NCBI RefSeq assembly: GCF_029227915.1
Contig: NC_079881.1
Span: forward strand, 22,047,501 to 22,111,500
DNA from: Hydractinia symbiolongicarpus
Taxonomy: Eukaryota > Cnidaria > Hydrozoa > Anthoathecata > Hydractiniidae
Length of the DNA stretch: 64,000 nt
Direction: 5' to 3'
This document shows, in pieces, positions 4,441-64,000 of the stretch. Made by a program: the position numbers and the translations under genes. The notes below the pieces were generated by a model. That model was not told the origin of the DNA, made no database searches, and saw only the letters and a list, made by a program, of their open reading frames with translations. The first letter of the stretch is position 1, and every line of letters starts with the position of its first letter.

Positions 4441-4469
4441 ACTACTACGGACGAAGCTACTCCTGTTAC

Positions 4470-5095: not shown

Positions 5096-5114
5096 CATTC
5101 TGGTTAAAATATTC

Positions 5115-5592: not shown

Positions 5593-5649
5593 CTAAAAAC
5601 ATTGACCGTAAAAGGCAGAAAAATACAACAGCGACAGAACACAACACTA

Positions 5650-7120: not shown

Positions 7121-7152
7121 TTGTATTAGAGCAGAATCAGAGAAGGATGAGT

Positions 7153-30309: not shown

Positions 30310-30361
30310 GCCCTGTTGGTCTAATGGCTATGACACTCTTGCAAACGAGAGATGCAGGACA
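30310..30361 (+). repeat. tRNA-like module truncated by LINE insertion
   Basis: Starts GCCCTGTTGGTCTAATGGCT as at 26319 but loses the T-arm with the B-box; LINE coding sequence begins directly after GACAG. On the far side of the LINE (33280) the sequence resumes with AATTATCTTGCACCTACAAC, which follows the tRNA-like module in the copy at 43733. The LINE therefore inserted into this module. Confidence 0.7.
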
Positions 30362-33047
30362 GACAAAATTGATGACACCATCACTGACAATGACGTTAAA
30401 ATTGATGGCTATGTTTGTTATAGGAATGATCGGAATAGACGAGGTGGGGGTGTTCTAATTTTTGTTAATGAAAACTTGGATAGCCACCTTTTGAAACACC
30501 TTTACTTCGAAAATGTTGAATCACTATGGGTGAAAGTGTGCCTGAAAAAAACTAAACCTATTTACGTGTGTGGGGTTTACAGGCCACCTGGAGGTAGTGA
30601 TTTGCAGAGTACCGAAAACCTGTGTACTCATTTTAAACAGTGTTTTAACAAGCTCCCAGAAGAGAAAGAAGTTTTTATCTTGGGAGATTTTAACTGTAAC
30701 ATGCTTTCAAAATATGCTCTTTCCTCCAAAATAAAGGAACTATGCTCCACTCTTTTCCTAAAACAACATATTACGGAGCCAACTCGTGTTACTGAAAATA
30801 GTAGCACTCTTAAAGACTTGATACTTTCTAACAGTTCTTGTATTTCTAAAACTGGTGTCATGGATTTAGGCATCAGTGATCACAATTTAGTTTATGTGAT
30901 CAGAAAATTCAAAAGGCCAAAATTTGAACCTAAAACATGCAAGGTTCGTAGCTACAAGAACTTCAGTGAAGAGAATTTTCTGAAGGACCTCAGGAATTTA
31001 GACTCGTCATATTTTAATAATTATGATGACCTTGATAAAGCATGTGAGAAACTGAATAAAAATGTTAAAACAGTGGCTGACAAACATGCCCCTTTCAAAA
31101 CACATAGATTTTCTGGCAGTGTTGAGGCATGGGTCACTGATGAATTAATAATAGCCATCAAAGAAAAAGATTTCTTGAAACGGAAAGCATCAAAAACAAA
31201 ATCCATCATAGACTGGGAAGCTTTCAAACAAAAAAGGAACCAGGTAATAGGTCTCAAAAATCGACTCAAAAACGAGTACTATAATGACGTTTTGCAGGAC
31301 TTTCAAAAACGGCCAAAACAACTTTGGAAAACCCTAAAAAAACTGGTTCCTGATAAGTCAGGCAATACTACCTCGATAAAACTAGTAGTCCAAAACGATA
31401 GTACAGAAACTTCTCACCCAAAATAAAATTCCAACACATTCAACTTATTTTTTGTCAGTGTTGGTGCCAAACTAGCCTCTAAATTTTCTTCTGACACTAC
31501 TAATGTTAATCCACCTGTTAGCGGACACGATTTTCGGTGGGCTCGTATTGAGACCAAAAGTGTCGAAAAAATAATTAGATCACTAAAACTTAATAAAGCT
31601 ACAGGCTTGGACGGAATTGGTTCACGACTGCTAAAAGCAGGTTCGTCAGTTTTAAGTATTTATTTATCAAGTCTTTTCAACAAATCTTTATTTACTGGTT
31701 ATGTACCTAAATGTTGGAAGACTAAAAGGGTCTCGCCTATTTTTAAAAGTGGCAATAAAACAGATCCTACTAATTATCGGCCTATCTCCATTTTGCCAAT
31801 TCCTATGAAAATTTTTGAAAAGTTAGTGCATGAGCAAATGTCTCATTTTATTTCTGAGCACAACTTCCTGAATGACAGACAGTCCGGATTTCGAAAACTC
31901 TTTTCCACAGAAACTGCAGTAGTCGATGTCTCTGATTTTATTCTTACTGAGCTCGACCAACATAACTTTGTTTGTGCTGTGCTCATTGACCCTAAAAAAG
32001 CTTTTGACACTGTTGATCATAAAATTTTGTTAAAAAAACTATGGTGTTTTGGCATCAGAGATGCTGCCTTTGACTGGTTCGAGTCCTATTTAACGGGCCG
32101 AATGCAGCTGACTCTTGTAAACGACACAGGATCAGATCTGCTTCATGAAGACGCTTTTGGGGTGCCGCAGGGATCTGTGTTGGGGCCCCTGCTCTTTCTT
32201 TTGTATATTGATGACTTAAAATCTGTCATCAATTCAAACTATCACCATCTATATGCAGATGATACAATAATTATTTCGTCTCATAAAAACTTGGATACCC
32301 TTGTCTCCCAGGTCGAGTTAGAACTTTCGCAAGTCGACCTCTGGCTGAATAATAACAAAATGACTATTAATACGGACAAAACTGAAACAATCTTTTTCGG
32401 CAACCACAGCCAGTTAAAAAAAGTTGAGAACAAATCTATCAACTATATGGGTACTCCTTTGAAGAGGAGCGAAAACGTTAAATATCTTGGGGTAACATTT
32501 GATCAAAAAATGCAATGGGAAAAGCACATTAATGACATAAATAGAAAAATACTAATTAAATATTCTAAAATTAGAACCATTGCATCCTGTTTAACACCTC
32601 ACATAAAAAACCTTTTAATTAATGCACTAGTCATGCCATATTTCAACTACTGCTCCTCGACATGGGCTTGTGCCACCCAAGGTAGATTGGGAAAACTAGA
32701 AAAACGATTAAAATGTGTCCGTACCTTTCTTGGGAAAGAGAGGGAATATTCAATGAATAATTTACTCATCAAAAACGATGCCATATTAGTTTTCAAAGCC
32801 ATGAATCACATTGCTCCTGATTACATGCGCTCAAAATTCCTTTTGACAAAAAAACTGTCATAATCATCAAACAAGAGGAGCTTCAAAAAACAGGTTCACA
32901 CTTCCCTTGGTCAACACGGAATTTGGCAAAAAAGCCTTCCCATTTAGAGCTGCAAAAGTGTGGAATAATCTTCCAGACCAAGTGACCTGTGATGGAAGTC
33001 TGCTTTCGTTTGAGACTTCCATCTCTAATGTATTTGGCAAATTCTAA
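30362..33047 (+). pseudogene. LINE ORF2: APE endonuclease + reverse transcriptase
   Basis: One frame runs from 30362 to 32863 with a single TAA at 31424-31426. The endonuclease part shows RGGGVLIFVNENL, CGVYRPPGG, ILGDFNCNML and LGISDHNLV with the catalytic His. The RT part shows LNKATGLDGIGSRLLKAG, NYRPISILP, VLIDPKKAFDTVDH (motif A), GVPQGSVLGPLLFLLYIDDL and LYADDTIII (motif C with both Asp). A frameshift after 32860 leads to the tail KAFPFRAAKVWNNLPDQ, which ends at 33045-33047. Only two lesions are visible, so this copy is fairly young. The scrap at 26495 is from the same family. Confidence 0.9.
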
Positions 33048-39084: not shown

Positions 39085-39850
39085 AAATATTTACCCTTAA
39101 ACCCAGTGTATCGTCCATCTACACTAGGATACTCCTTCCTAATCTTACAAACTGCACACGCTGGTATGACACGTCGTACACCTCGCCCAAGTTTGTTGTG
39201 GATAAACTAGCAAAACTGTCGATAAGCACTGTAACGGTACGTCCTAAATTTTTTTAGCAAAATAAGTTAAGTCAATCATCGAATTTTTAGTAACGCATGA
39301 AAGATTAAATCCTATTTGGTACATCGTCACGCTCAAGTAAACCGCGACTTTTCCGGTCATGTAGCGAGACTAACGCTGTCCATAACACATCTTTCAACAA
39401 CATGATGTAGTTAAAATGTGGATGCTGTGTGATGCCTTCCTGATCTTAAAATAATTATCATGAAGTTAGAAAAAAGTCTGGAAATATAAAAAAATAAATC
39501 GCTACCATTAAGATTGATATAACACATCTTTCAACAACATAATGTAGTTAAAATGTGGATGCTGTGTGATGCATTCCTGATCTTAAAATAATTATCATGA
39601 AGTTACAAAAAAGTCTGGAAGTATAAAAAAAATCGCTACCATTAAGATTGAAATATTATATGGCATCGATGTCAACACAGCAAACACACTCTTTCTCTGT
39701 CTGCATCCTCTCACATTTACCACAACGACACCAATCAGTAACAGGCTTGCACAATCTAGGATTTTGCTGAGGATGGAAGCCTGATCATCAAAAGCGTCAT
39801 TAGAAACCCGCCTAGGCTGTGAAGCTCTGATCTTTCTGGTTCATACTGAA
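39085..39850 (-). pseudogene. P2X7-ballast-like gene, third copy
   Basis: On the minus strand: FQYEPERSELHS (about 39835), the zinc module WCRCGKCERMQTEKECVCC (about 39755-39670), an exon QHPHFNYIMLLKDVLWTAL (near 39400), and a last exon with NKLGRGVRRVIPACAVCKIR and SVDGRYTGFKG (near 39200-39100). The order and wording match the ballast-like genes of the two Kolobok elements. The first exon is broken by a frame change between FQYEP and the zinc module, and the middle exon is partly duplicated. It lies just downstream, same strand, of an ankyrin exon with a good donor. Confidence 0.7.
39383..39658. repeat. Tandem duplication of ~138 bp
   Basis: Copies begin AACACATCTTTCAACAACAT at 39383 and 39521 and differ at a few positions. 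The unit covers the 5' part of the middle ballast exon plus its acceptor, so the gene has an extra partial exon. Confidence 0.9.
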
Positions 39851-44481: not shown

Positions 44482-44795
44482 TTAAAGGGGAACTCCAGTA
44501 AAAATCACTTTTTTCTTTTTTGTTTTATACGTACTCAGAAAAGCATAAGAAATCAAAAAAAACTTACTTCACTTGTTTTCCTTATTTAAAATCGTTGTAC
44601 TAGCCTTCGCATATTCAATTTTTTTCTTATAAAAAAACAGACAGGCGCGATTTCATTTAGGACTGGACCCGATTATAAACAATGACATCACATCGTGCAG
44701 AAAGTTTAAGCGAGCGCAGAGAACGTTCATGTTAAGACCTCTGGCTTACATTTAAATCGCTTTTTGTATGTAAATTACGTTTAAATCTTTAAAAA

Positions 44796-47460
44796 ATGGT
44801 TAGTTGCTCTGCGTTTGGATGTACCAATCGATCAGAAAAGTGTAAAGAAGTCAGTTTTCACAGAATCCCGTCTGTGAAAAAGAAAGAACTCAGACAAAAA
44901 TGGCTAAACAAAATACGTCGTACAGGTGATCTACCAAGCGATCGAAGTTTTTATATTTGTTCGTCGCACTTCACAGATAGTTCTTTTAAAAGGGATCTCC
45001 AGGTAATAATCTTCCATATTAAAATATTGCCACTTCGTAAAAATGCCATTTTAGCTAGTCAACGCGATCAAAGTTTCTCATTTCTTCTTCATTTCATTAT
45101 TTGTACTTATATCCACAACACAACCAAATAACGTTTTCTACATATTTATATTATAAAAGAACATTATACCAATTTCCAATACAAAGTTATCTAGTTAGAC
45201 ATGTATCTTTCGTAGCGCTCGTAAGTTTCTATTCTTTGTTTTTCAAAAAAGAAGCTTTTTGATGGAAGGACCTGCCGAATATTTTCAGGGGGTAAATGTG
45301 CCCATTTTATTAGCATCATTTCATCGGCGCTACTTCTAATCTTTGTTTATTTAGGCTGAACTTACTGGTATCAAAAGAAAGAGACAGCTGACCGAGGATG
45401 CTGTTCCAACAATTTTTTCTTTTAGTAAGCCTGAAAATTCAAGAGAATCGACATCAAAAAGATTGGAAACTTTCGCTAAAAAACAAGTGTTTTTTTAAAA
45501 TTTATGCTATTGCCAAAATGTGAGTTGTGCCTGTCTTTTTTCTTGGAAGTTATTCTGATCATTTTTTTTCTAGTGTGTTGCAAAGGCTTTAAGTGTGGAG
45601 GATGATGTTGACCTTGAAGTATACGCTGAACAAGAAATAATTTCATTGGTTAAGGAACAAGGCGTTAGTGCAATTGTGGAAACGGTAGAGAAATCGGTTG
45701 GTGCCAATACTTTTACCAGGTCCGTTAGAACACAATGTGATCCCTTAGAGGCAATTCATCCTGAGATACAACCAACGAAGGATGTTTTAAAAGTGAAATT
45801 TACTCTTCCGCACGGACGATGTAAGTCTACTAACACCGACCTATCCTTTCCTCCGCAAGCTGACGTGACATTCTTGCTGAATGCAAATATGGAAAGTGAT
45901 CATGATATCGTCTCTGGTGATGAGTGCCCTTCTGATGATTCTTTATACTCACCGCAATTACAAATTCACATCGACGACAGTTATGATGAAAATATCTGCG
46001 AAGAAGAGTCTTTTGACACTGCTGAATGTAACCCAGGGCTCAAAAGCGACGCACAATTTCTTGTTTTCTGGTCTTGTCTGTTGACATTATTTCAAGTTTG
46101 TTTCACGTGTTTACAAAAAACGTGCATTACTCGTGTGGTAAAACGTGGAACTCTTATCATTGTTACTAGTATTTGTCCAAATAAACATGTTTTCAGCTGG
46201 CAGTCTCAACCTATCGTAAATGGAAGAGCAGCAGGGAACTTATTACTTTCTGCAGCCATATTGTATTCCGGAAACACATACGCCCGCATTGCCGAAATGA
46301 TGAGTATTTTGAGGCTTCAGTTTATCTCTAAGTCCACCTTCTATGATATTCAAAGGTCCGTTCTTTTTCCAAAATTAAACACTTTTTATAAAAAATATCG
46401 AAATAACATTTATTCTGAGTGCGCTGCGAAAGAAGGGAATTTGATTGGTGATGGGCGAAGTGACTCTCCAGGTTACAGTGCAAAGTATGGTACGTACACT
46501 CTAATGAGCGTAGACATCAATAAAATCATCGACTTTCAAGTTGTTCATGTTAGAACTGCAGGGAATTCTAGTCGAATGGAGAAGTGGGGATTAGTAACGC
46601 TACTAAATAAGCTGCGTGACCACAAAGTGACAGTTTCAGCATTAACAACAGATCGCCATGTTCAAATCCGCGCATTCATGAAGAAAGAACATCCTGAGAT
46701 AAACCACCAGTTCGACGTTTGGCACTTTGGAAAAAGCTTGAAAAAAAGCTTGACTGCTGCTGCGAAGCGCAAAGAATGTCTTGAGCTGATACCTTGGATC
46801 AAATCCATTATAAATCATTTATGGTGGTGCTGCGCTTCATGCGACAAAAATGAAAACGTTTTACGTGAAAGGTGGCTTAGCATTCTTTATCATATTCGTG
46901 GAATCCACTCTTGGCAAGGCAATGAATATTTCCATGAATGTGCGCACCCCACATTAGACCAGCAACGCAAATGGTTAAAGTTGAATTCACCTGCATATGA
47001 AGCAGTGGAGACTATTGTGCAAAATAAAAAAACTCTTGCCGACATGAACTATTTGGCGCACTTTTGCCATACGGGAAGCCTAGAGGTATTCCATTCTTTG
47101 CTTACCAAATATTGCTCGAAACGTATTCATTTCAGCATGGAAGGTATGGTCGCGCGCACGCAGCTGGCTGTCCTTGATTTTAACTCGGGGACTAATTGTG
47201 AACAGGCTGTTACCAAAAAAGGAGTACTCCGCTATAAACAAGTCTTTTCACGAGTAACACAATCCTGGGTCGTAAAAAAAATTACCGAGAAGAAAGAAAA
47301 GGCGTATTTAGCGGAATTAATGACGGCTAATTTGGAACCAATCGACAACGAAAAAGATAAGTTACCACAAACAGGAGAAATTGCTGAAAGAATAACAGAG
47401 GTTGAAAAACCCGACAAAAGCGATGCCATTAAAGCCACCAGGACAAGATTTAAAACGTGA
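44796..47460 (+). CDS. Kolobok transposase, THAP + DDE
   Basis: Exon 1 (44796-45002) encodes a THAP zinc finger: MVSCSAFGCTNR, FHRIPS, KWLNKI and CSSHFTDSSF, the C2CH pattern. A GT donor follows RDLQ. Exon 2 (45355 to about 45492) reads AELTGIKRKRQLTEDAVPTI. Exon 3 (about 45574-47460) is one long frame with CDPLEAIHPE, SWQSQPIVNGRAAGNLL, GDGRSDSPGYSAKYGTYTLM (first Asp), LTTDRHVQIRAF (second Asp), HQFDVWHFGKSLKK, a CC..C insertion region, and SLEVFHSLLTKY (Glu). The spliced product is about 745 residues with no stop or frameshift seen, so this copy may still be active. It should bind its own ends through THAP and cut at TTAA. Confidence 0.85.
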
Positions 47461-47483
47461 CTTTTTTATTTTTTTATTTTTAT

Positions 47484-48529
47484 TCAACTTTCTTTGAATA
47501 AAACATATTTTTCATCTTCTGCCGGATATTTTCTTCGAATTGCCCATACTACACAAGAAGGAATCACTCTTCTCACCCCTTTTCCCAATCGACTGTGTAT
47601 CCACCAAGTGAACTGTTTATAACCAGCGTAACGATAAGATCTATATAGAAAAATAAGGGAGGCATTATTGTCAGTTTTTTACCTTCTTTTTCTCGGACAA
47701 AAGAAGGGCTTGGAAACGAGGTTGAGCTACTTACTCATTTTTTAATTCTAAAGTGTCTCCTCTCAAATCATGCAATGCAGATAACGCAGTTTCTAAAACA
47801 GCTTTTGTCAAAACAACCACTTGAAAATCAGCAGCTTCTGTAACGCATTTATGACCTATGATAAGAGTGATTTTCAATTATACAATATTTATACCCCCGT
47901 TTTACTAACTTATCATTTCCACACGAACCTTATTCGATCTTTCGATCACGCATTTCAATGTTCTCCATCACGGAGAAAATGTAACATTACATAAGATTTC
48001 TTTGCATTTGTGTGCAAAAAAAAGCGCATGCGGAGGAATTAGATTGTTGAACCGTGAAATAAAAATAAATTGGCTTGTGAAGTAAAAAAAAAGTGATGAA
48101 AGATTATTTTATTGAAGCAAAAGATAAAGTTTTTGACGAAAAGAATGTAAAAGAAAAGCGATGAAATATATTTTTTATTTGTTTAAAAAGGAAAATTTCG
48201 CTTAGAAAAAAATTATATTTGCAGTATATATCCTACCTACCTTGGAAAAACTCATCAGGAATTTCGTTTGACTCGACACAGCACACGCTTTCAGTATCGG
48301 TTTCCATTGCTCTACAATTTCCACATTCACACCAATTTGCATTACCCGTACGTGGCTCTGCATCAGTAAAAGAAACCTCGTCATTTTCTACACCGTTACT
48401 AACTTCTTCCTCGTCAGACACAAGAGGTTCAAATTCGTATGGCTGTAGCTTTGTAAAGTCTTTTTCATGAAGAGAATTATCCGATTCTGAGCTTTCTAAG
48501 TTATATTCTTCGTCATTATTACAAGACAT
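47484..48529 (-). CDS. P2X7-ballast-like protein of Kolobok-1
   Basis: Three exons with consistent phases: 48529-48241, 47855-47735 and 47640-47484. Exon 1 starts MSCNNDEEYNLESS, passes the acidic LQPYEFEPLVSDEEE and the zinc module WCECGNCRAMETDTESVCC. Exon 2 gives GHKCVTEAADFQVVVLTKA and LSALHDLRGD. Exon 3 gives SYRYAGYKQFTWWIHSRLG and VRRVIPSCVVWAIRRKYP. This is the fold of the cytoplasmic C-terminal (ballast) domain of the P2X7 receptor, which binds zinc and guanine nucleotide in mammals; here it has no channel part. The stop lies 23 bp from the transposase stop, tail to tail. Function in transposition unknown. Confidence 0.8.
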
Positions 48530-48820
48530 CTTATCAACGAACAATGTAAACAGTAAGTAAACAAAACTTTTAGAAGGCGTGCTGCTGAGCTCACGGACTT
48601 TTTGCACGATGTGACGTATGCTAATTTATTCGGACCTAGTCCTCTCGACTTTACGCGACCTTGCAAATTTATTTGAAATTGAAGATGTTTACGGACGCGA
48701 TTAAGGTATAAATACAGATTTTTAACGATTGTAAAAGGTTTATTTTGACATATTTATGTATTGTCTTATAAAAATAACATTTTTTTCAAATATTTTTTTT
48801 CCACTGGAGTGCCCCTTTAA

Positions 48821-49180
48821 AACCTGTTATTACACTCCTAAAGCAAAAAGAATCCTGCAATAGTTTATGGGAAAAGTTCTTGTGCAAGATCAAACATTAA
48901 TCGTGAAATCGGATAGCCGTAATACATTTTTCCAAAAAACTTTACTGCAACTTCGGTTACCCTGCATGACAAAAAAAATTCTTATTTCCAACTGAGCAGA
49001 AACTTTAAAATAATAGTAATTAATTAGACTAGTGAGAAATTAAATAAGAAATACATGTTTCAATACATGTTGATGATTGCACGAGAACAGCTTGTCAGAA
49101 TTTAAAAAGCCTCTTAACAGAAAACGTAGACGTTGATGTTAAAGTTAGAATTTAAAACGCCTGGGTAATAACAAATGCAG
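48821..49180 (-). repeat. Composite repeat body (copy R-b, second half)
   Basis: Resumes with AACCTGTTATTACACTCC and GCAATAGTTTATGGGAAAAG, matching 49580-49640 and, inverted, 29460-29520. No gene. Confidence 0.6.
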
Positions 49181-50375
49181 ATGTTGAAAAATTAAATAAT
49201 AAAACAGGTATGTTGCACATCCATATAGGTTTAATACCATTTCAAACCAGACATAATCAACATTCAATGTGGCACAGTTTACAAAACGTATAAATCGCGC
49301 CAGGTGTTATAGTTACTTGTGACTAAACCAGATTAGCTTAAACTTCTGTTAAATAGAAACACAGGTAACAGCTTGTTGTTAACACAGGGCTGAGTGATTT
49401 GTACAGGTAGCTTTACTGTTTCGCACATACATTTCGGCACAATACCCATTTCTAAAAAACTATCCTAACTTCAGTTAGTTCAAACAGACAGTTAACAACC
49501 TGTTCTTATCCTACGCAGCTAAAACAATTTTATATACTTTGTGGAAAATTTTGTAACATTTAAAAATAAAAATACAGTTTATAACCTGTTTTTACCTTCT
49601 CTAAGCAAAAAAACCCCGCAATATTTAATGGAAAAAGTTGGACGATTGTGGATTGTGGCTAGAACAAGCTATGTAATGGGACATTCCTAATCAGGAGTAG
49701 AATTATATCACTTACTGTGTCATAGTATAGGTAGTGTATGGTAGCTACCTGATAGAAAATATGTCGAAAATAATTTTCTATGCTAGCTTGTGTAGCTGAT
49801 TTTATAGGTAAAGTAGCTAATTTTATGCTAGCTTTGTAGCTAGTTTTATGCTAGCTGTATATGTTATATGTTTGCTCTATTTTATGCCAGCTAGCTTAAA
49901 AAGTCTTAGAAATCTTTAAATCTATTTAAGTTCTATTATTATTTCAGCTCAGTCGGTAGTTTTGTGCTAGCTAGCCTTAGGTGTAAGTGAGAATAAGAAA
50001 GGGTTCGTTACATGTAAAAAATAGTTAGCCTTTCTTCCTTTTCTTGAACAATACGATATAGCTTTAGATTAACGAAAGTTTGAGTTTTAACAAACAACAA
50101 ACACTCCTTCGCCGTGCTATAAACAAGTTGTCTCGCTTACTAAAAAATGTACTAGAGAATGACCATATTAAATTGCTGGATTACTGTGATCCTTTGGACG
50201 AAATTTTAATATTTCCATAGTAACCATGATAATTTGGATGTATAGGGACGCAATCCTATATACTCTCCACCGTACTTACATTTCCTTTATATTTGGCTTA
50301 TATAATGAGGAAATAGGCTCCGTGCGCTGACGCGCACTCCGCTTCTCTCCGCAAAAAGTCAATTTTCTTCTAAAA
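49181..50375 (-). repeat. Composite repeat copy R-c with head
   Basis: Reverse order of 29053-30000, followed (leftward reading) by the head series of 21715-22020: CTTCGCCGTGCTATAAACAA, CCTATATACTCTCCACCGTA, TAATGAGGAAATAGGCTCCG and GCGCACTCCGCTTCTCTCCG. This is the most complete copy in the window. Confidence 0.7.
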
Positions 50376-51460
50376 ATTACTCGTTTGTTACCAAACCCAA
50401 TAAAAGTCCATCTTCACCCACCTTTGCAATGCCAAAACCCACGGAACACCATAACTTTAGCTAGAACTTAAACAAAAGGTAAGCGTCGCCCACACTAGTT
50501 TGATAAACAAGGCCATCACATGCCATGCAAACTATATTTTGCAAGCATTAACAGTTCTTTCAAGACTTTGATCTCAATTACCATCAGAGTCCTCTTTCCC
50601 ATCTCCAGTAAAGTCTATAGTCCTAAATATACTGAGTGGCTCTTGTTCACCAATTGATCCTTCTATTTTCTTGCGAGCGGTGCAAAATACAATCTATGCT
50701 TTTAACAATAACGGATTTGATTCAATCACCAATAGGATGTGCTTCAGTTAGTTCAGGTTGTTTTCTTTCCGCTGCTAGCATTTTTACAGGGAACACGCGC
50801 TTTTCCAGCCCCTTTTACAAAACTTGTTAGTTCTTCCTTCTTCTTTGTAAGATAGAATGCCTAAAGCAAACAATGTGTCTTTTTCTGCCAATCCCATTTA
50901 TTAAAAATCTTTATCTCCACAAATTCTAACAGCATCTTCATCTATTTATTATTTTATATTTTTAAGTATCAGTGTCATAAAAATAAACTTGTCGTCTTGA
51001 AATTTAAATGTGTTAAATCTGTGTGTTGCAATCATAAGCATATTATATAATCTAGTCTGTACTTTAGTACAAAAATAAACAGAATCGTAGGTAAAGCCAT
51101 ATTAAATCATTTAAACAAAACTAAATTCTTCTTTAAACTCTCCTTTGGTCATCCTGCAACATCGCTGCCATTTTTAATCATTTTATAAACAATATCAGAT
51201 TCAGGATTTCTACACCAGCATTCAGTAAGATCCCTATGTAACCATCGAAGACACGTGACCCTGAACTACTCTATCATGGGATTTAAAAAGAGTTCGGGGC
51301 GACTTGACAGTTATACCAAGTGGTGACAGTTATAAGTGTTGAGTCGACAGTTATAACACGCAGCGACAGTTATTAGTGTTGAGTCAACGATCATAAGGCG
51401 TGGCAATTCATTTTTTTGAATTTTTTTTCGAAAACTCGAACACCCATAACTTAATTAACC
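50376..51460. other. No gene called; possible remnant
   Basis: Minus-strand fragments such as EPLSIFRTIDFTGDGKEDSD (near 50600) read like old coding sequence, with stops in between. I cannot name the family. Near 51310-51370 three copies of a GACAGTTATA(A/C) box with GTGTTGAGTC spacers form a small direct repeat. Confidence 0.3.
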
Positions 51461-51466
51461 CAATTT

Positions 51467-51467
51467 T

Positions 51468-51502
<35 letters not shown>

Positions 51503-51505
51503 TTT
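51467..51505. repeat. (ATTT)n microsatellite
   Basis: About nine perfect TTTA/ATTT units. Confidence 0.95.
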
Positions 51506-51599
51506 CTTCTTTTCTTTTTTTTGACAAATCAAAACACCCCTAAAACCATTTTTTTAAGAATGGTCCAATTTTTGACTGGATTATTCCGATTAGTTTTCT

Positions 51600-53220
51600 G
51601 TATACTCCTTCGTCTTCTAGTTTTCTTTATTTGGCCTCACACATTCACAATTTTCATTTACGGATTGTAAGTCATCCTTTAACATCTTTTTCCTAGAACT
51701 TTTTAACTTTGTTTGGTTCACAGCATTTTGCCTTTTATACTTCAGTGTTTCAAATTTACAATTTCCATCCAAACAAATTAGCACATCTTCCAACGATTTG
51801 ATCTCAGCATCAAAAGCTTCTTCAATTTTTGCTTTTCTTGTTACTTCAGCTTTTTCTGATACAGCTGACTTAGTTTTAGGAGGGACCATTCCCATTCCAA
51901 CGAATCAATAACTTGATTATGACTTGGCTTCTTTTTATTGACCAGAAGTAAAACATCTTCGAAGAAATGACACAGTTTAAGTCGTGGCATGTTTACATAG
52001 TCTGGGAACGAATTGTTTTACTGCCGTGTCTTAAATCAGTCGCATTATAATTCAAAGCGTTGACCACAGCAGCATTATCTTGTTACATAATTTCTCATTA
52101 GTTGCTGCAAAAATCGTAAGATCTTCTGCAATTACACCTGACTTAATGGGTGGAACATTATCAACGTAAATATCAGGTTTTATTTTTTAAAAAGCATTTT
52201 AATATAAAAGTAGTTTTTCCACTCCCCGTTTGTCCTAAATTTTATGTCAGACAGCCCAACTATCGTCCAACTCTCTTGTAACAAAGACATTCAAATACAT
52301 CTTTCTGTTCTTTCGGTTTCTCACCAACTGCCACATGAAGTGTATCATCATAAGATGTCGTATTTTATGAAAATAACTTCGCCATCGTCCGTAAAAATGT
52401 TCTAGCCTTATAAGAGGGATCTGCCATTGGATAGTAAAATATAAAATAGCGCACTTTGTGTTTTGCGGATTGTATCTTATTTCGAAAGTAATTTTATTTC
52501 AACGTTATACCATTTTCTAACTGGTGATTGATTTGTTTATTTTTTCCACTTGTGACAACGCACAGCCAACTACAATATTCATTTATTCTTGATTTCTAAC
52601 CCTAGTTATTTTTAAATCAAAAAATATCTGTTGTTGCGTCCAGATGTCTTGGTTCTACTGATATATTAGAACAGTCTTTATCCTTATTCTCGATCTTATG
52701 ATATTTGAAATCTTCCACATGCCTAGCGTTTACTTCAAATGTGGTAATTGTTTCTCGTCCGAAGGTATAGAAATGCCGGGCCAAACAACTCTTATGATTT
52801 TGCATTTGCTGACGAATAACTTCATAAACCCCTGCCACCGCTACTTACTTTTAAATGGGCACAATTGATTACCTTTGTATTTGTCTAAATCCACTAAATT
52901 AGCATATTTGATAGTCTTTTAATCGTTCTGTTCATTCTATATTATATTCCTCATTCAGCCTGTAGATTTTGTCGAGCAACTGCAATTTCCTGTTCCTTCT
53001 TATTATGGATTTTCTATCTCCCATGTATTGAATATATCAAAGTCGCTTTTACATCACTCACCGCATTTACCTTCCATTGTGAAACAAAGTGGCTCCAAGT
53101 CCTTGTGACCATGAAATAAAGACATGAACTCATCCGAAAAGTAGTTGGATTTGTCATTTAACTTTCTGATCTTCACCTACTTTTGCATCTTTTTGTAGTT
53201 AACATTCCCAGCAGCCAGCA
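51600..53220 (-). pseudogene. Unidentified gene remnant with P-loop
   Basis: Minus-strand segments in order: LNDKSNYFSDEFMSLFHGH (near 53150), MGDRKSIIRRNRKLQLLD (near 53020), an open stretch 52838-52617 with FYTFGRETITTFEVNARHV, a Walker A motif LGQTGSGKTTFILKCFL (52180-52238), KPDIYVDNVPPIKSGV, NALNYNATDLRHGSKTIRS, and a lysine-rich coiled frame 51895-51617 (VSEKAEVTRKAKIEEAFDA). Stops and shifts separate them. The P-loop points to an NTPase, perhaps the ATPase of a large transposon or virus-like element, but I do not recognise the family. Confidence 0.35.
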
Positions 53221-53296
53221 TCCTATAACAATACGTTTACAGTAAGCAAAGAACCAAAATTCGATAATACATAATTTCATATATTATTATGACATA

Positions 53297-53874
53297 CTAG
53301 TCGATAAGGCCCGTGGAAAAATCCACTTAGGCAGGATAACAGAGAAAAATAACCGTCATTTCAATTTTGATGACGTCAGCAGAGACATGTCAGAACACAA
53401 AACATTTTTTTTCAGAAATGTGTATGCCTGTTGCCTTCATCGTATAGATCTTGAAACGCTGATCAAAAAAATGTATAGGATCGTGTATTTTTGACAAACG
53501 GTTGCAGAGATATTAGGGTTTGAAGGTTTTTTGATGACGTCATCAACCCGTCCATTCCCGAAACGGATTCAGGGACCCAGGTTTGGGAAACTTACCCAAA
53601 TTGGTCAAAGGTGGTCCCTAGTTACCTACGCAGGAGATGACGTCAGTTATTTCCACCCGTTTCCAAGTTATTTAGCCTTAAATTTAAAAGGCAATGCAAT
53701 GGCTTCACTAATCTTAATATACTTTCCTTTGACGTCAATATTGCTTTAACGTCAAAGTTTGGTAATTTACAGAACAAATTTATAGACGATGTTTTATAGA
53801 CTTTATCAAAGAAATTTTATCCACTTTGCAAAAGTCACAGACAGACAGAACTGGCGTATTATTATATAGACTAG
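53297..53874 (+). mobile_element. GTGGAAAAATCCAC-family repeat, full copy
   Basis: Starts ACTAGTCGATAAGGCCCGTGG with the hairpin GTGGAAAAATCCAC and ends GTATTATTATATAGACTAGT. The tips ACTAGTCG/ACTAGTCT are inverted, so a short TIR is possible. Several GATGACGTCA-type palindromes lie inside, and AGACAGACAGA precedes the end. The 72-codon frame inside is not supported as a gene. Confidence 0.6.
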
Positions 53875-54005
53875 TAGATAGGCCCGTGGAAAAATCCACT
53901 CAGGCAGAAGAACAATGAAAAATTAGAAGATTTTAGGAATTTTGATGACGTCAGCAGTGTCCTGTTCATCTACATAAAAATTGAATGCGTTTTTGATAGT
54001 TGGAA
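53870..54005 (+). repeat. Second, truncated copy of the same repeat
   Basis: Directly abuts the previous copy: ACTAGTAGATAGGCCCGTGG, the hairpin, then TTTTGATGACGTCAGCAG. Similarity fades near 54000. Confidence 0.7.
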
Positions 54006-54993
54006 AGGCCTGTGGAAAAATGACAAAAAAGCAGTAAAAATAAGGATAACTTACGAAAACGATAATGTTACGAAAAAGAAAACTTGGGATTTTGTTTTCC
54101 ATAAACCTCCATAAACCTAAAAAATAATAAATTATGATGATAATACTTTCCTATTTTTGTTTCCTGTAAAAAGATAATTCAATGGTTACATACAGATCGT
54201 ATAATATTAATATATTGGTAAGTAAGTTACCTGCAGTTGATGCTTCTTGAGTCTTTTCAATACCAAAAATATGTGATGCAATTTTAACATGGCATGCCCT
54301 GACTTTAAGTTCACGAATTATCTCCTTAAAAAGAAAATAATCCACCTAACGAAGCGCGCCACGGGAAGGCAAGTCATGGGCTTTGCGCTTCAACCTAAAA
54401 AAGAAAAAGAAAAGTACGTAGTGTGCTTTTGTACTAAAGAGAGTTAATAAGGTAAGTTTTGGGCAATATGACCAATTCCAGTAGCTTGTGAGCCCCCAAT
54501 ACCAGTGAATGTTGAAGTGAATATTGAATACATAATATAGATAACATTAACAGTTTTTTATAAGAACAAAATGTTTGAACATGAAAAACAATATGAGTAA
54601 ATATACAACCATTGAAAATGCTATTAATTTAATGAAAAGTGAAAAGGGTGGTTTTGTCAATAAAATACTCAATCTTGTAATTCAATTCTATATTTACAAC
54701 AGATTAAAAACAGAAAAGATAAACTAAACTAACCGATTAGTCTACTTACTTACAAACAAACAGACAAACAGCCAACAAACCAACCGACGAACACACTAAC
54801 TAACCAAACAAACAACTTACAAATAACTCACTAACTAACAAACAACTAACTAACAAACAACTTACTAACAAACAACTTACTAACAAACAACTAACAAATT
54901 AAGTAACTAAAGTCAGAGTTTAAAATTCCAAGCAACTTTTAAGAGTAAAAAGATATATGTAAATATAGACTATTTAGAGCTCAAATTTTCTAT
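54006..54993. other. Mostly no gene; exon-like patch at 54232-54335
   Basis: On the minus strand a block reading EIIRELKVRACHVKIASHIF and GIEKTQEASTA is bounded by a TTTTTAAG acceptor-like end and a GTAACT donor-like end, so it could be an internal exon. No partner exons were found. The rest is AT-rich. Confidence 0.3.
54760..54905. repeat. AACAAACAACTTACT-type tandem repeat
   Basis: Degenerate AACT/AACA units, with several exact ACAAACAACTTACTA repeats in the last third. Confidence 0.85.
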
Positions 54994-55790
54994 TTACTTA
55001 AAAGTTACTGACAAAGTGCCTCCATTAAATTGTAAATTGAATTGGTTTAATGAGCTGTTTAAAGTGTTGGCGTTGGTGTTATTGTTGGTGGTGGTGGTAG
55101 CATTGGTTGAGGAGTTGGTATTTTTATTGAAGGAAGTTTTTTTGGTATTTTGACGCCATTTAAAATTTGGTCTATCCTGGCCCCCATTAGCTTTCCAAAA
55201 TTTAAAAGCTTTGTTTGATTTGGGGCCAGGATGTTCCTGCCGATATAGTTTGAAGGCTTTTCTGGACAAATTCACTAAAATAAATTAGCTGTGTTTTTAG
55301 AATTAATATCATCCGAAAATTGTAAGTAATTAGTTAGTAATTAATTATCGATTGTGCTAAATTATCGATTGTGCTAACAAAAGCAGTTGCAAAAAATAAA
55401 AAAATTATAATAATAACATTTACCTGCTTTTTGTTTATTTTCTTTGTTCATATTCTCATCTATAACCACAATATACACAATAGTAGTAATTAGGCATATT
55501 TGAATTATTCTCATTAGAACCATTCATTATTTTGTGATACATGTTACGAAAATAATAAAAAGTCAATTTCAATAAAATATTAATATTAATAACATTTACC
55601 TGTTTTTTTTCTATGCTGTTATGTTCAACTTCGACAACATCATCACTCTCATCTATAGAATGTGTGGAATAGTTATAATTAAACAGTAGAAAAAAAAATT
55701 ACAAAAAAAGATATTTTATAAATTTAATTATTACCATCACTTTTCATCAGGACTTCCTCGTTAACCTCATCACTAATGTTACATGCCATT
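54994..55790 (-). CDS. Possible small spliced gene, Lys/Asn/Thr-rich product
   Basis: Exon 1 from ATG near 55789 (MACNISDEVNEEVLMKSD) ends at GATG|GTAATA. A candidate exon 2 (55655-55600) and exon 3 (55460-55425) both start ATGAGA after TATAG and end in CAG|GTAAAT. The last exon (about 55277-54994) reads NLSRKAFKLYRQEHPGPKSN, KAFKFWKANGGQDR and an Asn/Thr-rich tail. Joining exons 1, 3 and 4 keeps one frame and gives about 120 residues. Including exon 2 breaks the frame, and it ends in an A8 tract, so a one-base loss may have killed it. No domain is recognised. Confidence 0.35.
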
Positions 55791-55799
55791 TTTTATTAA

Positions 55800-56266
55800 A
55801 TTTTACTCTGATAACCTGCATTAAGAACAAATATTAATTAAGAAAAGAGTGGGTGAGATTAACTTAAAGCTGCACAAACAAATTGTTCTCACAACAAAAA
55901 TATATGAAATACTTGAAAAATTGCAAATTGTTGAACAAATGAATAAAATATGTGATCAATAGTTGATAATATTAAAGCTTCAATACAGAAAACATTTCAT
56001 GAAAATCTTGCATATTAATTACTTAATTATTTATATTATTGTTGCAAATTCTTATTCCTATCTTGGCTTTTAGTTCATGAATTACATACACATTTTTTTA
56101 CATGCAATTCACTTAACAGGGTGCAGCACGTGAAGGTAAGCCTTTGCACCCCACCTAAAAAGAAAAGGGAGGATAAAATGTTCTTAATGTTGATACTTTT
56201 AATAAAATATGATATAAATTAAGGAAAAAAAATAAGTTGTCCTGATCTTTACGTTGTCTTCAGCCT
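55800..56266. other. No gene seen
   Basis: AT-rich DNA up to the left end of Kolobok-2. Confidence 0.4.
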
Positions 56267-56655
56267 TTAAAGGTAGTGTCTGCTACAAAATAAAAACTTT
56301 TATATTAACTGATATAGATATACAAATAAAGAAATGACATACCTTTTTTTTTTATTAATCTCTGGAAATACATATAAACAAAACTTTTTTACTTGGCCAT
56401 GTCGAAGCACAGCTAGAGACGTTCTGAATAACATGCGCGAAAAAAGGCCTGGTAAAAATAATTATGCGTAATTATGCATTTGACGTCAGTGATTGGTTGA
56501 TTTGAAAGACCGAACATGCGAAAACGCGACAAACGCGACAAGCCCCCCTGAAAATAAAAACTTTTCCTTTTTTTTTTTTCAGGCGGGAGAAGGTATAAAA
56601 ATATTCTTCAAATCATTTATAGGTCTTTAAAACTAGGCGGTTTTAATTTTAAATA

Positions 56656-57440
56656 ATGGCGCAATCTAGACTATCCAATAAACCGAACGTTATAGGGTTT
56701 CAGTATGAGCCCTAGAGAGCGCCTGGCGCAAATGAAATGCCCGAATTTAATGACTCATCTGACGAGGATGAAGAAAGTGCGAAACCTCCAAGAAGTACCT
56801 TGAATAAGGACAAGTGGTGCTTATGTAAAAACTGCGAGGTTATGCCATCGCAGCAAGAATGCATTTGTTGTCATGAAATTGACGAGATAAAGTACGCCCA
56901 TCTGAACGGTAAGAACAGTTACATCTTGTTTCCAGCCTACTTTTTTGTCTCTAAGGAGGGGGCGGCAGAGACACTGGAAACGCATGACTAGTATAAATGT
57001 TTTTATAATAATCGACGTTCCTATATTTTATTATAGACAAACATTGCTTACTTGACCATCCTGACTTTGTTCCAGTCGTGCTCTTGAAAAACAACCTTTG
57101 GACGGCGTTAGTGGGCTTGCACGATAGAGGAAGTCGTGGTTTATCAAGCAGAAATAATGTTTCCAACAGGTATTAATATTACAACATGTATTTATGCGAT
57201 GGCCGTAACTGGAGTAGATGACTATTTGCTGTTATGTTTAGATCTTATAGATACGCTGCTTATCGGCAGTTTTGTTGGTTTATCCACACCAGATTAGGAA
57301 GAAGTGTACGTCGAGTGATCCCAGCTTGTGTAGTAACGATGATTCGTCAAGAATACCCGAGCCCTGATGGAAAGTACGTGGGTTTTTGTGAAGTGACAGG
57401 AGTCTCAGAGGTGGACTTTTCTTGGAGTGGAGACAATTAA
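56656..57440 (+). pseudogene. P2X7-ballast-like gene of Kolobok-2
   Basis: Exons 56656-56908, 57037-57169 and 57242-57440 join in phase at GT/AG borders. Exon 1 begins MAQSRLSNKPNVIGFQYEP, then an in-frame TAG (56713-56715), then MPEFNDSSDEDEESAKPP and WCLCKNCEVMPSQQECICC. Exon 2 gives KHCLLDHPDFVPVVLLKN and LWTALVGLHDRGSRG. Exon 3 gives SYRYAAYRQFCWFIHTRLG and VRRVIPACVVTMIRQEYP. Intron positions equal those of the Kolobok-1 gene. The only lesion seen is the early stop; an internal start at ATG 56737 would still give the zinc and ballast parts. Confidence 0.8.
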
Positions 57441-57584
57441 ATTTTGTTTTTAAATATAACCGTTAAGTGTAACATATATAAAAGAGAAGACGGCTATGAA
57501 ATATTTGTTGCTCAGAATTAATATCTTATTGCGGCCTTTTATGTTTTAAAAAAAACGTTTGTATTCTGTTTTCGTACTAACTAT

Positions 57585-60500
57585 TTACAACTTTATACGC
57601 TTGTATTTTATCGAATTTGATATAATTTCTTCTCTATCTGGTCTTGCGACAGGAGCAATTTTCTTGTCGTATTGACGTTTTTTTCTCTTCGATGCGCTGG
57701 CTTTACTTCCATATGATGCACGCAAAATTATTTTTTGAATTATGTAAAATAGATATCCTATTTCTTTTTCCTCTTTAACTGGTTTAGCCACAAATCGTTT
57801 GGTTGGTTTAGAGTACGCAATTTGAAACAGCGGTGTTGCTGTACCTTCATCATCCACCTGATATTTCTGTGAACGAAACATAAAATTTAACACTCTATTA
57901 ACATATCTTGTAGAGAAGATTTAAGTATTTTTTTACCTGTTCCCTTTTACAATTATTATTATGGTCGAGGATTGCTAATTGTGTTCCAGCGATCATTTTT
58001 TCCATTCCGAAGAACGAACTTTTTGGAAGATATCTAATCTTCAAGGAAGGAAAAACTTCGAACATGGTCGTGCGAATTTATTCGTTCATTTGCTCTAGAT
58101 CTGTGACGAGTGTTTTTTGCGTAACAATATGGATCAATGCATTGTGCGCAGGGGATCCCATTTGAAACCATTCTTTTTGCCGCTTATCCTCGTCCGTTAA
58201 CTTCTCGTGTTCGCATTCTTTATAAATTGAATTTTGTGGAAATGTGTGTTTATTTGCAGTATGATGGACGACTGACACAAATCTTTCAGCCAATTCTTTC
58301 CCGTCCCCTTTACACGTAGCGATGGACCAATATAAGTGGTTAACCACTGCTGGAGCCCATCGTGCAAGAAGCTTAAAATCTGAAACAACAACAAAAACAT
58401 TAAAATATTCCAGTTCGCAGCTTGATGTGAATATAGGCAAGTGGTGTTACGTTTGTTACCTTTCTTTTTGGATGCCTTTATCATTTTTTTCAAAATTCCT
58501 TTACCAATGTGCCAAGGGTCAAACTGGTGGATGATGTGTTTAAACCTTGGATCAGTTTGCATCAATTTTTAATGGAAACATGGCGGTCTGTCGATATAAC
58601 GCGGATCTTAACATCCAGATCGCTTTGGATGGTATTTATGCAACGCAGAAACCCTTCTTTTTCCATCGCTTGGGAACTTGTTACCTCCTAGACAAATATT
58701 TCTATTTTAAATTAACACCGTTGCTAACTACTAAAAATATGTATTGAAAGACAAAGTATACTATACCGTTACATGAACTATGCTATAATTTGGTACTTTG
58801 TTGGTGAACGTGTCGATTGCAGATACGGTACTATACGATGCATTATGACCTGGTGTGTCGCATTGTCCATCAACCGCAAGCTCTAAACTTCGATTGGCTT
58901 CCGTAATTTCTGTTACTTGCTGTTGTTGTTCCTTTCGCCAAGCATGGTCAATTTGCGGAAAGATGTAATTGCCTCGATGTTCAAAATACATCTGTTTCGA
59001 CAGGAATTGTACTTTTAAAAGCTTTGCAAACTTATGTAATTTTGGGTAGCTTCTTCCTGCTAGTTCTGCCGCTGCAGCAATTAAAAGATTTCCAGCTCCC
59101 TTTGTTCCATTGAGCATGGGTTGCGATGACCACTTATAGCTACATCCTAAATAGATTAAAAACCTTTCTCACATAAAAGAAAAAATGTTACGAACATTCA
59201 GCCGCACAGGTGATTTATACCTACTTTTAGCACATGTTAAGTTTAACATTAGTTGACTCCCCGTGTTTTTTGTTTCTCTTGTTAATGACGAATTGATTGT
59301 CGCTCCACATTTTAAACAGTATTTTACCAGTTGCAGTAACTGTGATTCGTACACAAGAAAAACCTTTTGTTTGTGAAGAGGTTTTGTTGCTGATAATGAT
59401 GGTGTGCTTTCAGAATTATCATCATCGAATTCTGATTCTGTGTTGTCATCGGGCGAATCGATAGCTGCGAAATCGGGATCTTTTTTCGCAGTTCTAAATA
59501 TGCAACGTTTAAAAAATAAATTTGCATAAAAAAGACTACTTTTATTACTTCTGGTTTATAAAATAACTTTTCACCTTTCAAGAGAGTTTTTCAGCCATTC
59601 GTCATCGTTCACATCAATTTCTTTGTTTTTTTCGAGAGGGTCTGAAACTGCTGATTCTTCAGCAATCTGCGTTTTTAAGTTAAAAGACAAAGAAACTCCA
59701 AGGACCTCCAAGAATCTTTCCAACTCTTCTATGTTGTTCAACTGAAACGTACCGTGAATACTATTCATCCTTTCTGTACTTTCAACATCTTCATCCTCGT
59801 CTATTTCGTCATCACTGCTTACCACGTCCATGCTTTGATCTTGGTTCTTTTCGGCATCTAAAAGTAAATCATATTTTAACGGTTTAACTAAATACTTCAC
59901 GCTTCTTAAGTAAAACTTAAGTGAAACTGTTTACAAACCCTTGAGTTCTTATTACGAAAAAGTTGATATTAATTTTACCATCATTAACACTCGAGCACTG
60001 GTTCGTAATTTGCGTTGCTCTGTTACAGCGCCTCGTGGGCAGTGTTTGGGTTTGGGCGTGAATGTCTGGCCTAAAATCCATTTGATTTCCATAGTCCCGA
60101 ACTTTTGGTGACGGCACCTGTGTTCCAAAATCTCTTGTTTTCCTTTTTTCTGTTTGTATCCCAATCGAGTATGTCGAGGGTAAAGGTTCGCAGGACGCGC
60201 AAGGTTCATCATGTGGCAATTCATCCCTCGTTATAGCGTTTTCGATAACCTTGAATTGGATTACATATAAAATAAAATAATTCTACAAAATACCACTTAA
60301 AAATGAGCCTAGGAATTATTTTAAGAACCGTATGTACCTCTTTTAAACTTTTTTTTCAACTCTTTTCTTGGAAGTTTGCCTTTCCTTAGGTTGCGGTTTG
60401 TGTGGGAAAATTGTTGGCAAAGATCCCGGTACCAATTTCCTTTTTGCCGTTCTCTCGGTATAAAACAATTCATTTTGAAGGCTCCAGCTTTTATCGAAAC

Positions 60501-60670
60501 AGTTCTCCGTAAAGTGATCAGAACATAAGAGAACTTTTTTCGGCAATTCTGTTCTGTTTATAGCTTTTACCCAGGCATTTCGTACATTTCGATCTCCTGG
60601 TAGACGAAAAAAACTTTTCTTTGTCGCGTTTACTATTATTGCTGCAACCGAACGCTGAGCACCAAGACAT
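57585..60670 (-). pseudogene. Kolobok-2 transposase, THAP + DDE, multi-exon
   Basis: The THAP finger starts at ATG 60670 (MSWCSAFGCSNNS) and goes on after a frameshift in a T7 tract (about 60610) with PGDRNVRNAWVKAINR and VLLCSDHFTENCF. Exons follow near 60238-59958 (GIQTEKRKTRDFGTQ), 59858-59581, 59490-59225 (FLVYESQLLQLVKYC), 59150-58771 (WSSQPMLNGTKGAGNLL, LAVDGQCDTPGHNASYSTVS with the first Asp), 58690-58460 (RVISTDRHVSIK, HQFDPWHIGKGILKK; frameshift near 58568), 58390-57935 (VNHLYWSIATCKGDG, MFEVFPSLKIRY with the Glu; TAA at about 58078) and 57890-57585. Kolobok-1 has the same protein with most of these introns absent. Confidence 0.8.
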
Positions 60671-61411
60671 GTTCGTTCTTAAACTGATAATTTTGGGACA
60701 TATCTTTGCTTATGATAAACTGTCTAGCAACTTCGTATCCACGTTTTTTTTAGTGTTTTTTATAACAGTTCCGTCCCGACCGGATAGATGTTTGGTCTGT
60801 GCTTAAAGTGTGTGTTCATACTAGCATAATCTTCAACGTTTCGCATTGTTTAAAACCCACGGCATTCAAAAATGTTTAAGAAAAAATAAAAATAAAATTA
60901 TTCTATTGCTTGTTTATGTATGACATTACATTACATACTTTGACAGATAAATTTACTTATTTCCGTTAAATAAATTTAAGGATTCATGTTATTAATTTGT
61001 GATTTCTATTTTTGCAGTCTGTCAATAGCCTTTCACGATCCAAAAATACTTATCGCAGACGATACATTTTTTATTCGAAAGCGTCTGGCTCGTAGCCGGG
61101 GGTTAATTTTTAAATCTTCGGCATTACAAATTAAATTTGTTCTTCATACATTCCCCATGTTTTCGGTCCCGATTTTGAACCTGGACACTGACGTAGGCGG
61201 GGACATATTAGAAAAGCCTCGCATTCATGCGCGGTCGTGTTTACAATATGGCGAACTAATGTAGCTACACGAGGAGGAAACTCTCAAATTTAAAAGAACA
61301 ACATTGCACTGGTACTTTGTATTTATTAAATTTTAACCTGAAATTCGTTAATAATAACATGTTTTCTTTATGTAAACTAACTTTAAATTTTGTAGCAGCC
61401 ACTACCTTTAA

Positions 61412-62109: not shown

Positions 62110-64000
62110 TTATGTGAGAACTTGACGGTAAACAATATTTTGAGAGTAACATTTCCCATTAAAAAACCCTTGCTTGGATGGGGGAACAATACTTACTCTA
62201 ACATCATCAAATGCCCTTGCTCTAGAAAAAGCAACATACAACTGACCATGAGAAAAACAAGGCCTGCGCAACAATATACCAACCTTTTCAAAGGTTTGAC
62301 CTTGTGCCTTGTTTATTGTCATAGCATAAGAAAGCCTTAGTGGAAGCTGTCTGCGACGCAAAACAAAAGGCATACCTGTATCCGAAGGTGCAAGTTGCAC
62401 CCTTGGAATAAGTACCCTATCTCCAATAGCATTGCCAGTGAGTACTTTAGCATCGACACAGTTGTCGTAAAGATATCTTACAGTTAGGCGAGTGCCATTA
62501 CATAAGCCTTTATTTATGTTTATGTTTCTTAATAACATAACAATGGCACCCGATTTTAATTTAAGACAATGAGGAGGCATACCTGAAGGTGTGATACTAT
62601 TTAAAAATTCCACCGGATATTGATTCCGTTCCTCCTCATCATCACACACAACATCATCTGCACTAAAATAAATTTTTTCTTCACCCGGCAACAACTCCAA
62701 CACCTGATCATTAATTATAAGTGAATCATCATTTGTAGGTGTTAGTATTACAGATGATGCCATATTTTCTGGGTGAAAATCCCTAAACAAAGTATTAACA
62801 ATACATTGATTTTGTTGTAACACACAATTGGATGGCACTTCAATTGCACCTTGAAACGGTGGTTGTTCCCGAACTGGTAAAACACCTTTTCCAAGTTGCA
62901 GAAGCCATGCAGCAAATTCTTGTTCTCCTGGCCTCGTTCTCATGTTGTGAGTTAATTTAAATTCTGTAACCAAGTGCCATAGTGGAGAACTTTTTAGGCA
63001 CATGTCAACAATTTCAGTTGGTTTTCCTTTTCTGACAACAGGCAATAATTGTGAAAAATCACCACCTAAAAGAACAACTTTACCTCCAAATGGAAGTTCG
63101 CTATTGCAAATGTCTCGAAGAAGACGATCTATTGCATGGAAAGCATGCTTGGGAATCATGGAAGATTCATCAAGTAAAAAGAGATTTTTTTGCCGTAGCT
63201 CAACAGCATAAGCAGACACCGGAGTTCTGCATGTACTGTTTTCCAAAATAGGAACTGGTAACTGAAATAACTTATGTATAGTGGTACCGTTTTTTAAAAG
63301 AGTTGCTGCTATACCAGTAAATGCAGCAGTTCCAGCTTGAAAACCTCTACCTGAAATTTCGGAAATAAGGTAATTATAAGTAAAGGTTTTACCACTGCCA
63401 CCAGCACCCTCTAAATAAAACAAACGGTTATTTTGGGCTGTATTGTTAGCAACATTTAAAACCGCTTCTATAACTGCATCAGCCAGTGCTGTCTGTTCTT
63501 CAGTAAGTTGAGCCCTCAGTTGAGAAGCTCTTTCAGCCTCCAAAGCTACATCAATGTTTTCAGCTGGAGGTATTTCATCTAAACTTGGAAGATTAAAATC
63601 AGTAAGAGATTTACCAGATTGTCTAAGTACAGAATGAATATCTTGAAGCACCCTGTACTCAGCTTGATCCTCGTTCATTTGGCGAAGATAATCCTCACAC
63701 ATAGAACCCTTGTACCTTGTCCACAAAGTAAAAGGATCAGAAGGTTCACAGTGGATAAGTATTATTTCAAACAATTGTCTTAATTGCCGAGGCATCTAAA
63801 AGTTGACAGCCTCCTTCAAAGTATTGTTCCATTCGGTATCATCTTGCAGTAGTCCACGCAATAAACAGGTTTCACGAAATGTCTCAGCGACATTACCATC
63901 CACAGTTCTTAAATCTTCATAAGATGTTGCACCACACGTATGTAATAATAGCATACGTATATAAATAAAAAAGCTCACCTGCGCGAGGACTCACACTATA
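62110..64000 (-). pseudogene. Helitron PIF1-like helicase, partial
   Basis: The frame 63795-62110 (561 codons) is the C-terminal helicase of a Helitron Rep/helicase protein: LEGAGGSGKTFTYNYLI (Walker A), FLLDESSMIPKHAF (Walker B), GGKVVLLGGDFSQLLPV, MRTRPGEQEF, SYAMTINKAQGQTFEKVG and LYVAFSRAR. Upstream in the same frame, after one TAG at 63793-63795, GATSYEDLRTVDGNVAETF and LLQDDTEWNNTLKEA continue the protein; near 63975 a frameshift joins YSVSPRAGELFYL. The Rep (HUH) part lies beyond the window. The C-terminus is complete. With only two lesions it is a recent copy. Confidence 0.9.

Follow-up and report, generated by a model that had tools for sequence, protein, structure and literature searches.

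A 64,000-nucleotide stretch of the Hydractinia symbiolongicarpus genome (NC_079881.1, positions 22,047,501 to 22,111,500; the window) holds two elements, E1 and E2. They represent two families within Kol0, a lineage of the cut-and-paste DNA transposons called Kolobok, and each carries genes for a DDE transposase and, convergent with it, for a second, small protein, KolX, which is homologous to the cytoplasmic ballast domain of P2X7. In the joint reading favoured here, KolX would serve the transposase as a partner in trans and the tail of P2X7 would derive from such a gene; we place the probability of this reading as a whole at about 0.6. An earlier, sequence-only reading of the window knew of no description of the pairing, but one is in print. 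Kojima and Bao (2022; PMC9587614) define the Kol0 (Kolobok0) lineage by KolX, assign KolX the P2X7-ballast fold, and conclude that a P2X4-like gene fused with KolX to give P2X7; Kolobok itself they credit to Kapitonov and Jurka. In the literature searched, 'KolX' occurs only in that paper, and P2X7, ballast and transposon appear together likewise only there. Its Kol0 passages name cnidarians among the hosts, without mention of the two Hydractinia families, of intron differences, of the N-terminal motif or of a deletion family with broken KolX. What is added here beyond print is small and consists of the decay of E2 and youth of E1, the non-universality of the introns, the constancy of the PYxFEP motif and the broken-KolX deletion family.

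Both elements are confirmed. A scan for TTAA adjoining an 18-base inverted repeat returned exactly the boundaries proposed from sequence alone (Table 1), and 0 of 115 shuffled controls contained any such pair. Both elements show the TTAA target-site duplication of Kolobok, and their termini are of the 5'-RR / YY-3' type, unlike those of piggyBac (TTAA-AGGGG...CCCCT-TTAA in E1, TTAA-AGGTAG...CTACCT-TTAA in E2). Both start with AG and end with CT, which agrees with the definition of Kolobok in PMC9587614. With Kol0 as described there they share the TTAA sites, the 5'-RR / YY-3' ends, a DDD/E transposase with DxxH and a ballast-fold KolX, the gene in each element being matched by the Pfam family P2RX7_C (PF20478). 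The anatomy is likewise as first read, in that Pfam, tblastn and gene models place a THAP-DDE transposase tail to tail with a ballast-like gene in both elements, while the terminal inverted repeats (TIRs) and the exon structures of the transposases are unlike between the two (scan, gene models).

The E1 transposase model consists of three exons encoding 741 residues and is open throughout. The NCBI model of this gene is shorter, at 523 residues, and we favour the longer one because THAP relatives of 729 to 783 residues (P0135, P0143, P0175) cover the whole query. The DDE exon matches the Mutator-like family PF20700 just below its cut-off, and it contains the blocks GDGRSD, TTDRH, DVWH and SLEV, for which an alignment with 54 rows of relatives shows matching invariant columns. 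Between C/DxxH and E, a C-x2-C ... H ... C-x-H pattern can be discerned, by eye only; a zinc finger at this place is reported for all Kolobok groups but Kolobok1 (PMC9587614). In E2, the THAP domain is matched by Pfam (E 7.8e-13), and its exon is split over two frames near 60608-60615. The two E2 DDE pieces searched matched no transposase family in Pfam; their identity comes from a tblastn match to the E1 transposase and from blocks like those of E1, read by eye.

KolX of E1 is encoded by three exons and is 188 residues long, with an acidic tail as its N terminus. Its stop codon lies 23 bp from that of the transposase on the opposite, convergent strand, and hexamers of the AATAAA/ATTAAA type are found on both strands in and beside this interval. 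The NCBI protein P0001, annotated 'P2X purinoceptor 7-like [Hydractinia symbiolongicarpus]' and part of a cluster of 12 sequences, differs from E1 KolX only at residue 35 over the 188 residues, and such a near-identical full-length protein supports the splice model. Against a PF20478 cut-off of 23.5 bits, exons 1 and 3 of E1 KolX score 26.6 bits (E 6.7e-6) and 36.5 bits (E 6.2e-9); in E2, exon 3 scores above it (36.1 bits, E 8e-9) and exon 1 below (19.6 bits, E 9.4e-4). The motifs on which the sequence-only reading had relied (WC.C..C..M.....E..CC, SYRYA.Y.QF and RRVIP.CVV) are seen in both genes, and its claim of common intron positions is borne out, as both introns match in phase and site. 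Intron 1 is in phase 1 at the third codon ahead of a conserved cysteine (C100 in E1), and intron 2 is in phase 2 at the codon just ahead of SYRYA. That reading was right that E1 and E2 both carry a ballast-like gene; it overlooked the decay of E2 and a third, degraded KolX in the window. This relic is older and closer to the KolX of E2, and the TTAA-TIR scan found no pair around it.

KolX proteins comprise about 190 residues, with an acidic N-terminal tail bearing a [PG]-[YF]-x-[FY]-E-P-like motif (PYxFEP), followed by a predicted two-zinc ballast domain. The motif lies outside the part matched to P2X7 and is nearly constant among KolX proteins; conservation was assessed in an alignment of 14 sequences, and 71 rows were hand-picked from 125 listed of the 368 proteins found. 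In the alignments, all seven cysteines that coordinate zinc in the P2X7 ballast are present in both E1 and E2 KolX. A PDB sequence search with KolX gave P2X7 as the sole match at E up to 0.1 (four distinct sequences, best E 8.5e-10), and the predicted model of P0001 has the same fold as the P2X7 ballast.

The two proteins nevertheless differ. Compared with the P2X7 ballast (PF20478; PTHR36981; PDB 6u9v), KolX is a separate small protein with an extra acidic PYxFEP tail, and no P2X channel domain precedes the ballast (the whole E1 protein being 188 residues). The P2X7 ballast is encoded by a single exon, exon 13 (PMC7016195), whereas KolX of E1 and E2 has three. Of the guanine-nucleotide contacts that PMC7016195 lists for P2X7 (R546, H547, R574, R578, K583), two of five are kept and equivalents of H547, R574 and K583 are absent, so that the contact residues give no support to a nucleotide-sensing role borrowed from P2X7. 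The short ZCD proteins of Rump et al. (2020; PMC7016195), Nanor among them, are comparable in that, like KolX, they have a ballast without a channel and a short, variable N terminus. Unlike KolX, they are treated there as host genes, the string 'transpos' occurring 0 times in the main text; in the view of Kojima and Bao (PMC9587614), Nanor is a domesticated KolX. In PMC7016195 (Figure 6), ballast genes share an 'ancestral synteny' with two linked markers across invertebrates, which might partly reflect a transposon's own transposase beside KolX.

The two elements are in different states, E1 being an open, young copy and E2 a decayed one. Both genes of E1 are open. Of the 150 scored matches to exon 3 of its KolX, 17 are open with 98-100% identity, the window copy and its inverted duplicate among them, and therefore the E1 family is young. 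The stop at codon 20 of E2 KolX is common to the inverted duplicate of the region (L002); the six other E2-family copies read comprise four open ones (L003-L006) and two broken ones (L007, L008). Nothing is drawn from the pN/pS of 0.62 in this family because its rows include decayed copies (L007, L008, the window copy and L002). The duplicate itself is part of a larger repeat: the segment at about 39-61 kb (C7:22.086-22.109 Mb), with the relic, E1 and E2, recurs inverted at C7:32.671-32.695 Mb, about 10 Mb away, with the E1 transposase at 100% (rounded) and the E2 KolX stop shared. This is either a segmental duplication or an assembly artefact.

The pairing of transposase and KolX is general in the window's own genome (481 Mb searched). 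Scoring 70 of 436 transposase candidates gave 78 matches, which merged into 65 loci; KolX was collected as 150, 83 and 4 rows from three lists (the latter two contributing rows judged new), each holding the best 150 scored of 436 to 714 candidates, and amounts to at least 237 stretches. At least 45 of the 65 transposase loci have a convergent KolX on the 3' side within 3 kb, a lower bound because only the best 150 of 436 to 714 KolX candidates were scored, and none (0/65) has a listed KolX in another arrangement only, although one of the 45 has an extra KolX on the same strand, 2.1 kb away. Random placements produced the convergent arrangement 9 times in 20,000, with the sizes of C3, C5, C10, C12 and C14 guessed. 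Among the 37 loci with an open transposase (at least 900 bp), at least 30 have a convergent KolX, and of the seven without a listed one three were read, all three having KolX exons in the convergent place. The same layout extends to families in which transposase identity to E1 is only 31-51%.

The converse approach went from KolX outward. Twenty of the 150 scored KolX matches were fetched (rows 2, 3, 5, then every second row to 39); nine show transposase-core matches, four THAP only and seven neither, and KolX is convergent with the core in 9/9. A TTAA-TIR pair encloses 12 of the 20, one of which (L031) is the inverted duplicate of E2; at L049 the Kolobok-type pair ranks third after unrelated inverted repeats. 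The same scan found no TTAA-TIR pair for the remaining eight. Most full-length copies in this genome hence do not lack the gene, and the idea that ballast exons were inserted into just these two copies is rejected by the pairing at 45 or more of the 65 loci. The suggestion that KolX is a conserved accessory gene of Kolobok is supported within this genome. Scans of viral and prokaryotic contigs, which used few peptide patterns only, found no KolX relatives.

The intron positions shared by E1 and E2 are not a general feature of KolX. In the P0046 family the gene is a single exon of 204 codons (C4:1797066-1797677) beside its transposase, and in the C1:12359677 family it reads through the intron-2 site. 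Since intronless KolX genes exist, the single-exon structure of the P2X7 ballast is no obstacle to its capture from KolX. Some elements show no DDE core. One family of 2.65-2.73 kb retains KolX only, with L037, L041 and L042 lying within TIR pairs and L040, of the same family, having none that the scan could find. Twelve records of this family were read, four of them repeat loci, and at all eight distinct loci exon 2 is out of frame, seven sharing one shift and L013 having another; that these elements retain a working KolX is thereby rejected. Copies with a broken KolX appear to have multiplied, and therefore KolX, like the transposase, would be supplied in trans or unneeded by those copies. 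Other coreless elements are of the E2 type and keep THAP and KolX (L032, 3.3 kb, and L049, 2.6 kb, both on C4). The THAP frame of L032 is open.

As judged from gene content and layout, the most likely role of KolX is that of a transposase partner acting in trans. Deeply separated families have inherited it next to the transposase, each time as a gene of its own in one and the same convergent position, while the deletion family, in which KolX is broken, still has multiple copies. The partner would be non-catalytic, aiding assembly or regulation of the protein-DNA complex, perhaps through the PYxFEP tail. A bolder version, in which KolX is a required trans partner, PYxFEP a docking site for transposase or host and the ballast a zinc scaffold, with capture by P2X7 leaving the tail behind and possibly starting from an intronless KolX, is one we hold only tentatively. 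The main rival to the partner role is that KolX has a regulatory or silencing-related one, without aiding transposition, as a repressor, a silencing suppressor or a source of convergent antisense damping by overlapping 3' ends. The closely spaced convergent stops of E1 with hexamers on both strands would suit it, as would the convergence at every one of the 45 loci for which a KolX is listed within 3 kb; plain antisense, however, has no need of the strong conservation seen in the protein sequence. L032, L033, L046 and L049 keep THAP and KolX and show no DDE core, KolX being open in L032 and L033. The KP type of P element is a repressor, and THAP plus KolX without the core would be such a make-up, but KolX and THAP lie near opposite ends, and internal deletions may spare both passively. 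On balance we regard the regulatory explanation as possible but unlikely. Scarcely credible is a third explanation, that the ballast gene belonged to the host and several transposons each captured it on their own. KolX introns do vary by family (two in E1 and E2, none in the P0046 family), yet at all 45 loci, and in the divergent families mentioned above, the gene keeps one position and one direction with respect to the transposase, and KolX was part of the description of the founding Kol0 families, for which Kolobok-1_XT stands as representative (PMC9587614). Independent capture is strongly disfavoured because separate captures would hardly repeat one layout.

With regard to P2X7, the receptor most likely took its tail from a KolX-like gene, a published proposal that we accept on fold and sequence, the tree being no proof. 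In a tree of 71 database KolX sequences, E2 KolX and two P2X7 segments, KolX of E1, E2 and P0046 form three deep groups, and the P2X7 branch is so long (2.99 changes per column) that its placement is not possible. Several observations weigh against the joint reading. The open KolX of L032 and L033, E2-type elements with no core match, runs counter to a simple rule; and, for the P2X7 part, approximately unbiased (AU) tests rejected joining P2X7 to the sole named fish KolX (p-AU 0.015) and to E1 KolX (p-AU 0.023). The AU rejections are given little weight because they involve one fish row and a very long P2X7 branch, prone to long-branch error. The transposon source that the sequence-only reading had suggested therefore fits the fold and sequence match, as argued in PMC9587614, while the tree with P2X7 gave it no placement and the joins were rejected. 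That the tree did not place P2X7 inside KolX would also be expected if P2X7 came first and transposons took the domain from a P2X7-like gene. We consider this order very unlikely, as typical P2X7 is reported in bony fish and tetrapods and not in agnathans or sharks, short ballast proteins exist in sponges and cnidarians (Rump et al. 2020, PMC7016195), and Hydractinia alone has at least three deep KolX groups.

The window contains further mobile elements. A reverse transcriptase frame at 7615-8670 (-; RVT_1 E 2e-6, just below cut-off) belongs to an element spanning 3304-8670, in which downstream frames match ubiquitin C-terminal hydrolase (PF00443; 5889-7106, E 6.6e-7; 3304-3819, E 2e-19); related DNA lies near 40.5, 42.1 and 42.5 kb. 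LINE-like endonuclease and reverse transcriptase frames occupy 30290-32860 (+), and a DDE_Tnp_4 transposase, probably of Harbinger type, lies at 20350-21111 (-; E 2.6e-15). A PIF1-like helicase at 62113-63795 (-; E 5.6e-50) is presumably a Helitron remnant, which is a guess on our part.

Table 1. Features of E1, E2 and the third KolX relic (window positions)
Feature	Position	Strand	Evidence
E1 left TTAA target site	44482..44485		TTAA-TIR scan
E1, Kolobok element, TIR AGGGGAACTCCAGT...	44486..48816		TIR 15/18 bases
E1 transposase exon 1 (THAP domain)	44796..45002	+	Pfam THAP E 3.4e-15; gene model
E1 transposase exon 2	45355..45486	+	model
E1 transposase exon 3 (DDE core: GDGRSD, TTDRH, DVWH, SLEV)	45574..47460	+	gene model
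E1 KolX exon 3, with stop	47484..47640	-	gene model, Pfam
E1 KolX exon 2	47735..47855	-	gene model, NCBI protein
E1 KolX exon 1 (PYEFEP motif, first zinc cysteines)	48241..48529	-	Pfam, NCBI protein P0001
E1 right TTAA target site	48817..48820		TTAA-TIR scan
E2 left TTAA	56267..56270		TTAA-TIR scan
E2, Kolobok element, TIR AGGTAGTGTCTGCTACAA	56271..61407		TIR 17/18 bases
E2 KolX exon 1, in-frame stop at codon 20 after GFQYEP motif	56656..56908	+	
E2 KolX exon 2	57037..57169	+	
E2 KolX exon 3	57242..57440	+	Pfam
E2 transposase region, several exons, DDE pieces and THAP	57588..60670	-	Pfam, tblastn
E2 right TTAA	61408..61411		TTAA-TIR scan
Third KolX relic, degraded, exon 2 duplicated, in-frame TAG	about 39096..39850	-	

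P2X7, a drug target in inflammation, has a large cytoplasmic tail whose role is poorly understood. That this tail should descend from an accessory protein of a transposon is remarkable, yet already in print. If KolX is indeed a required partner with a docking tail, the function of the P2X7 tail would become approachable through transposition assays. The Hydractinia genome offers a dense, testable set for such work, with at least 237 KolX stretches, young open and decayed copies, and intron-bearing and intronless families, and this set brings the role of KolX for the transposon within experimental reach.
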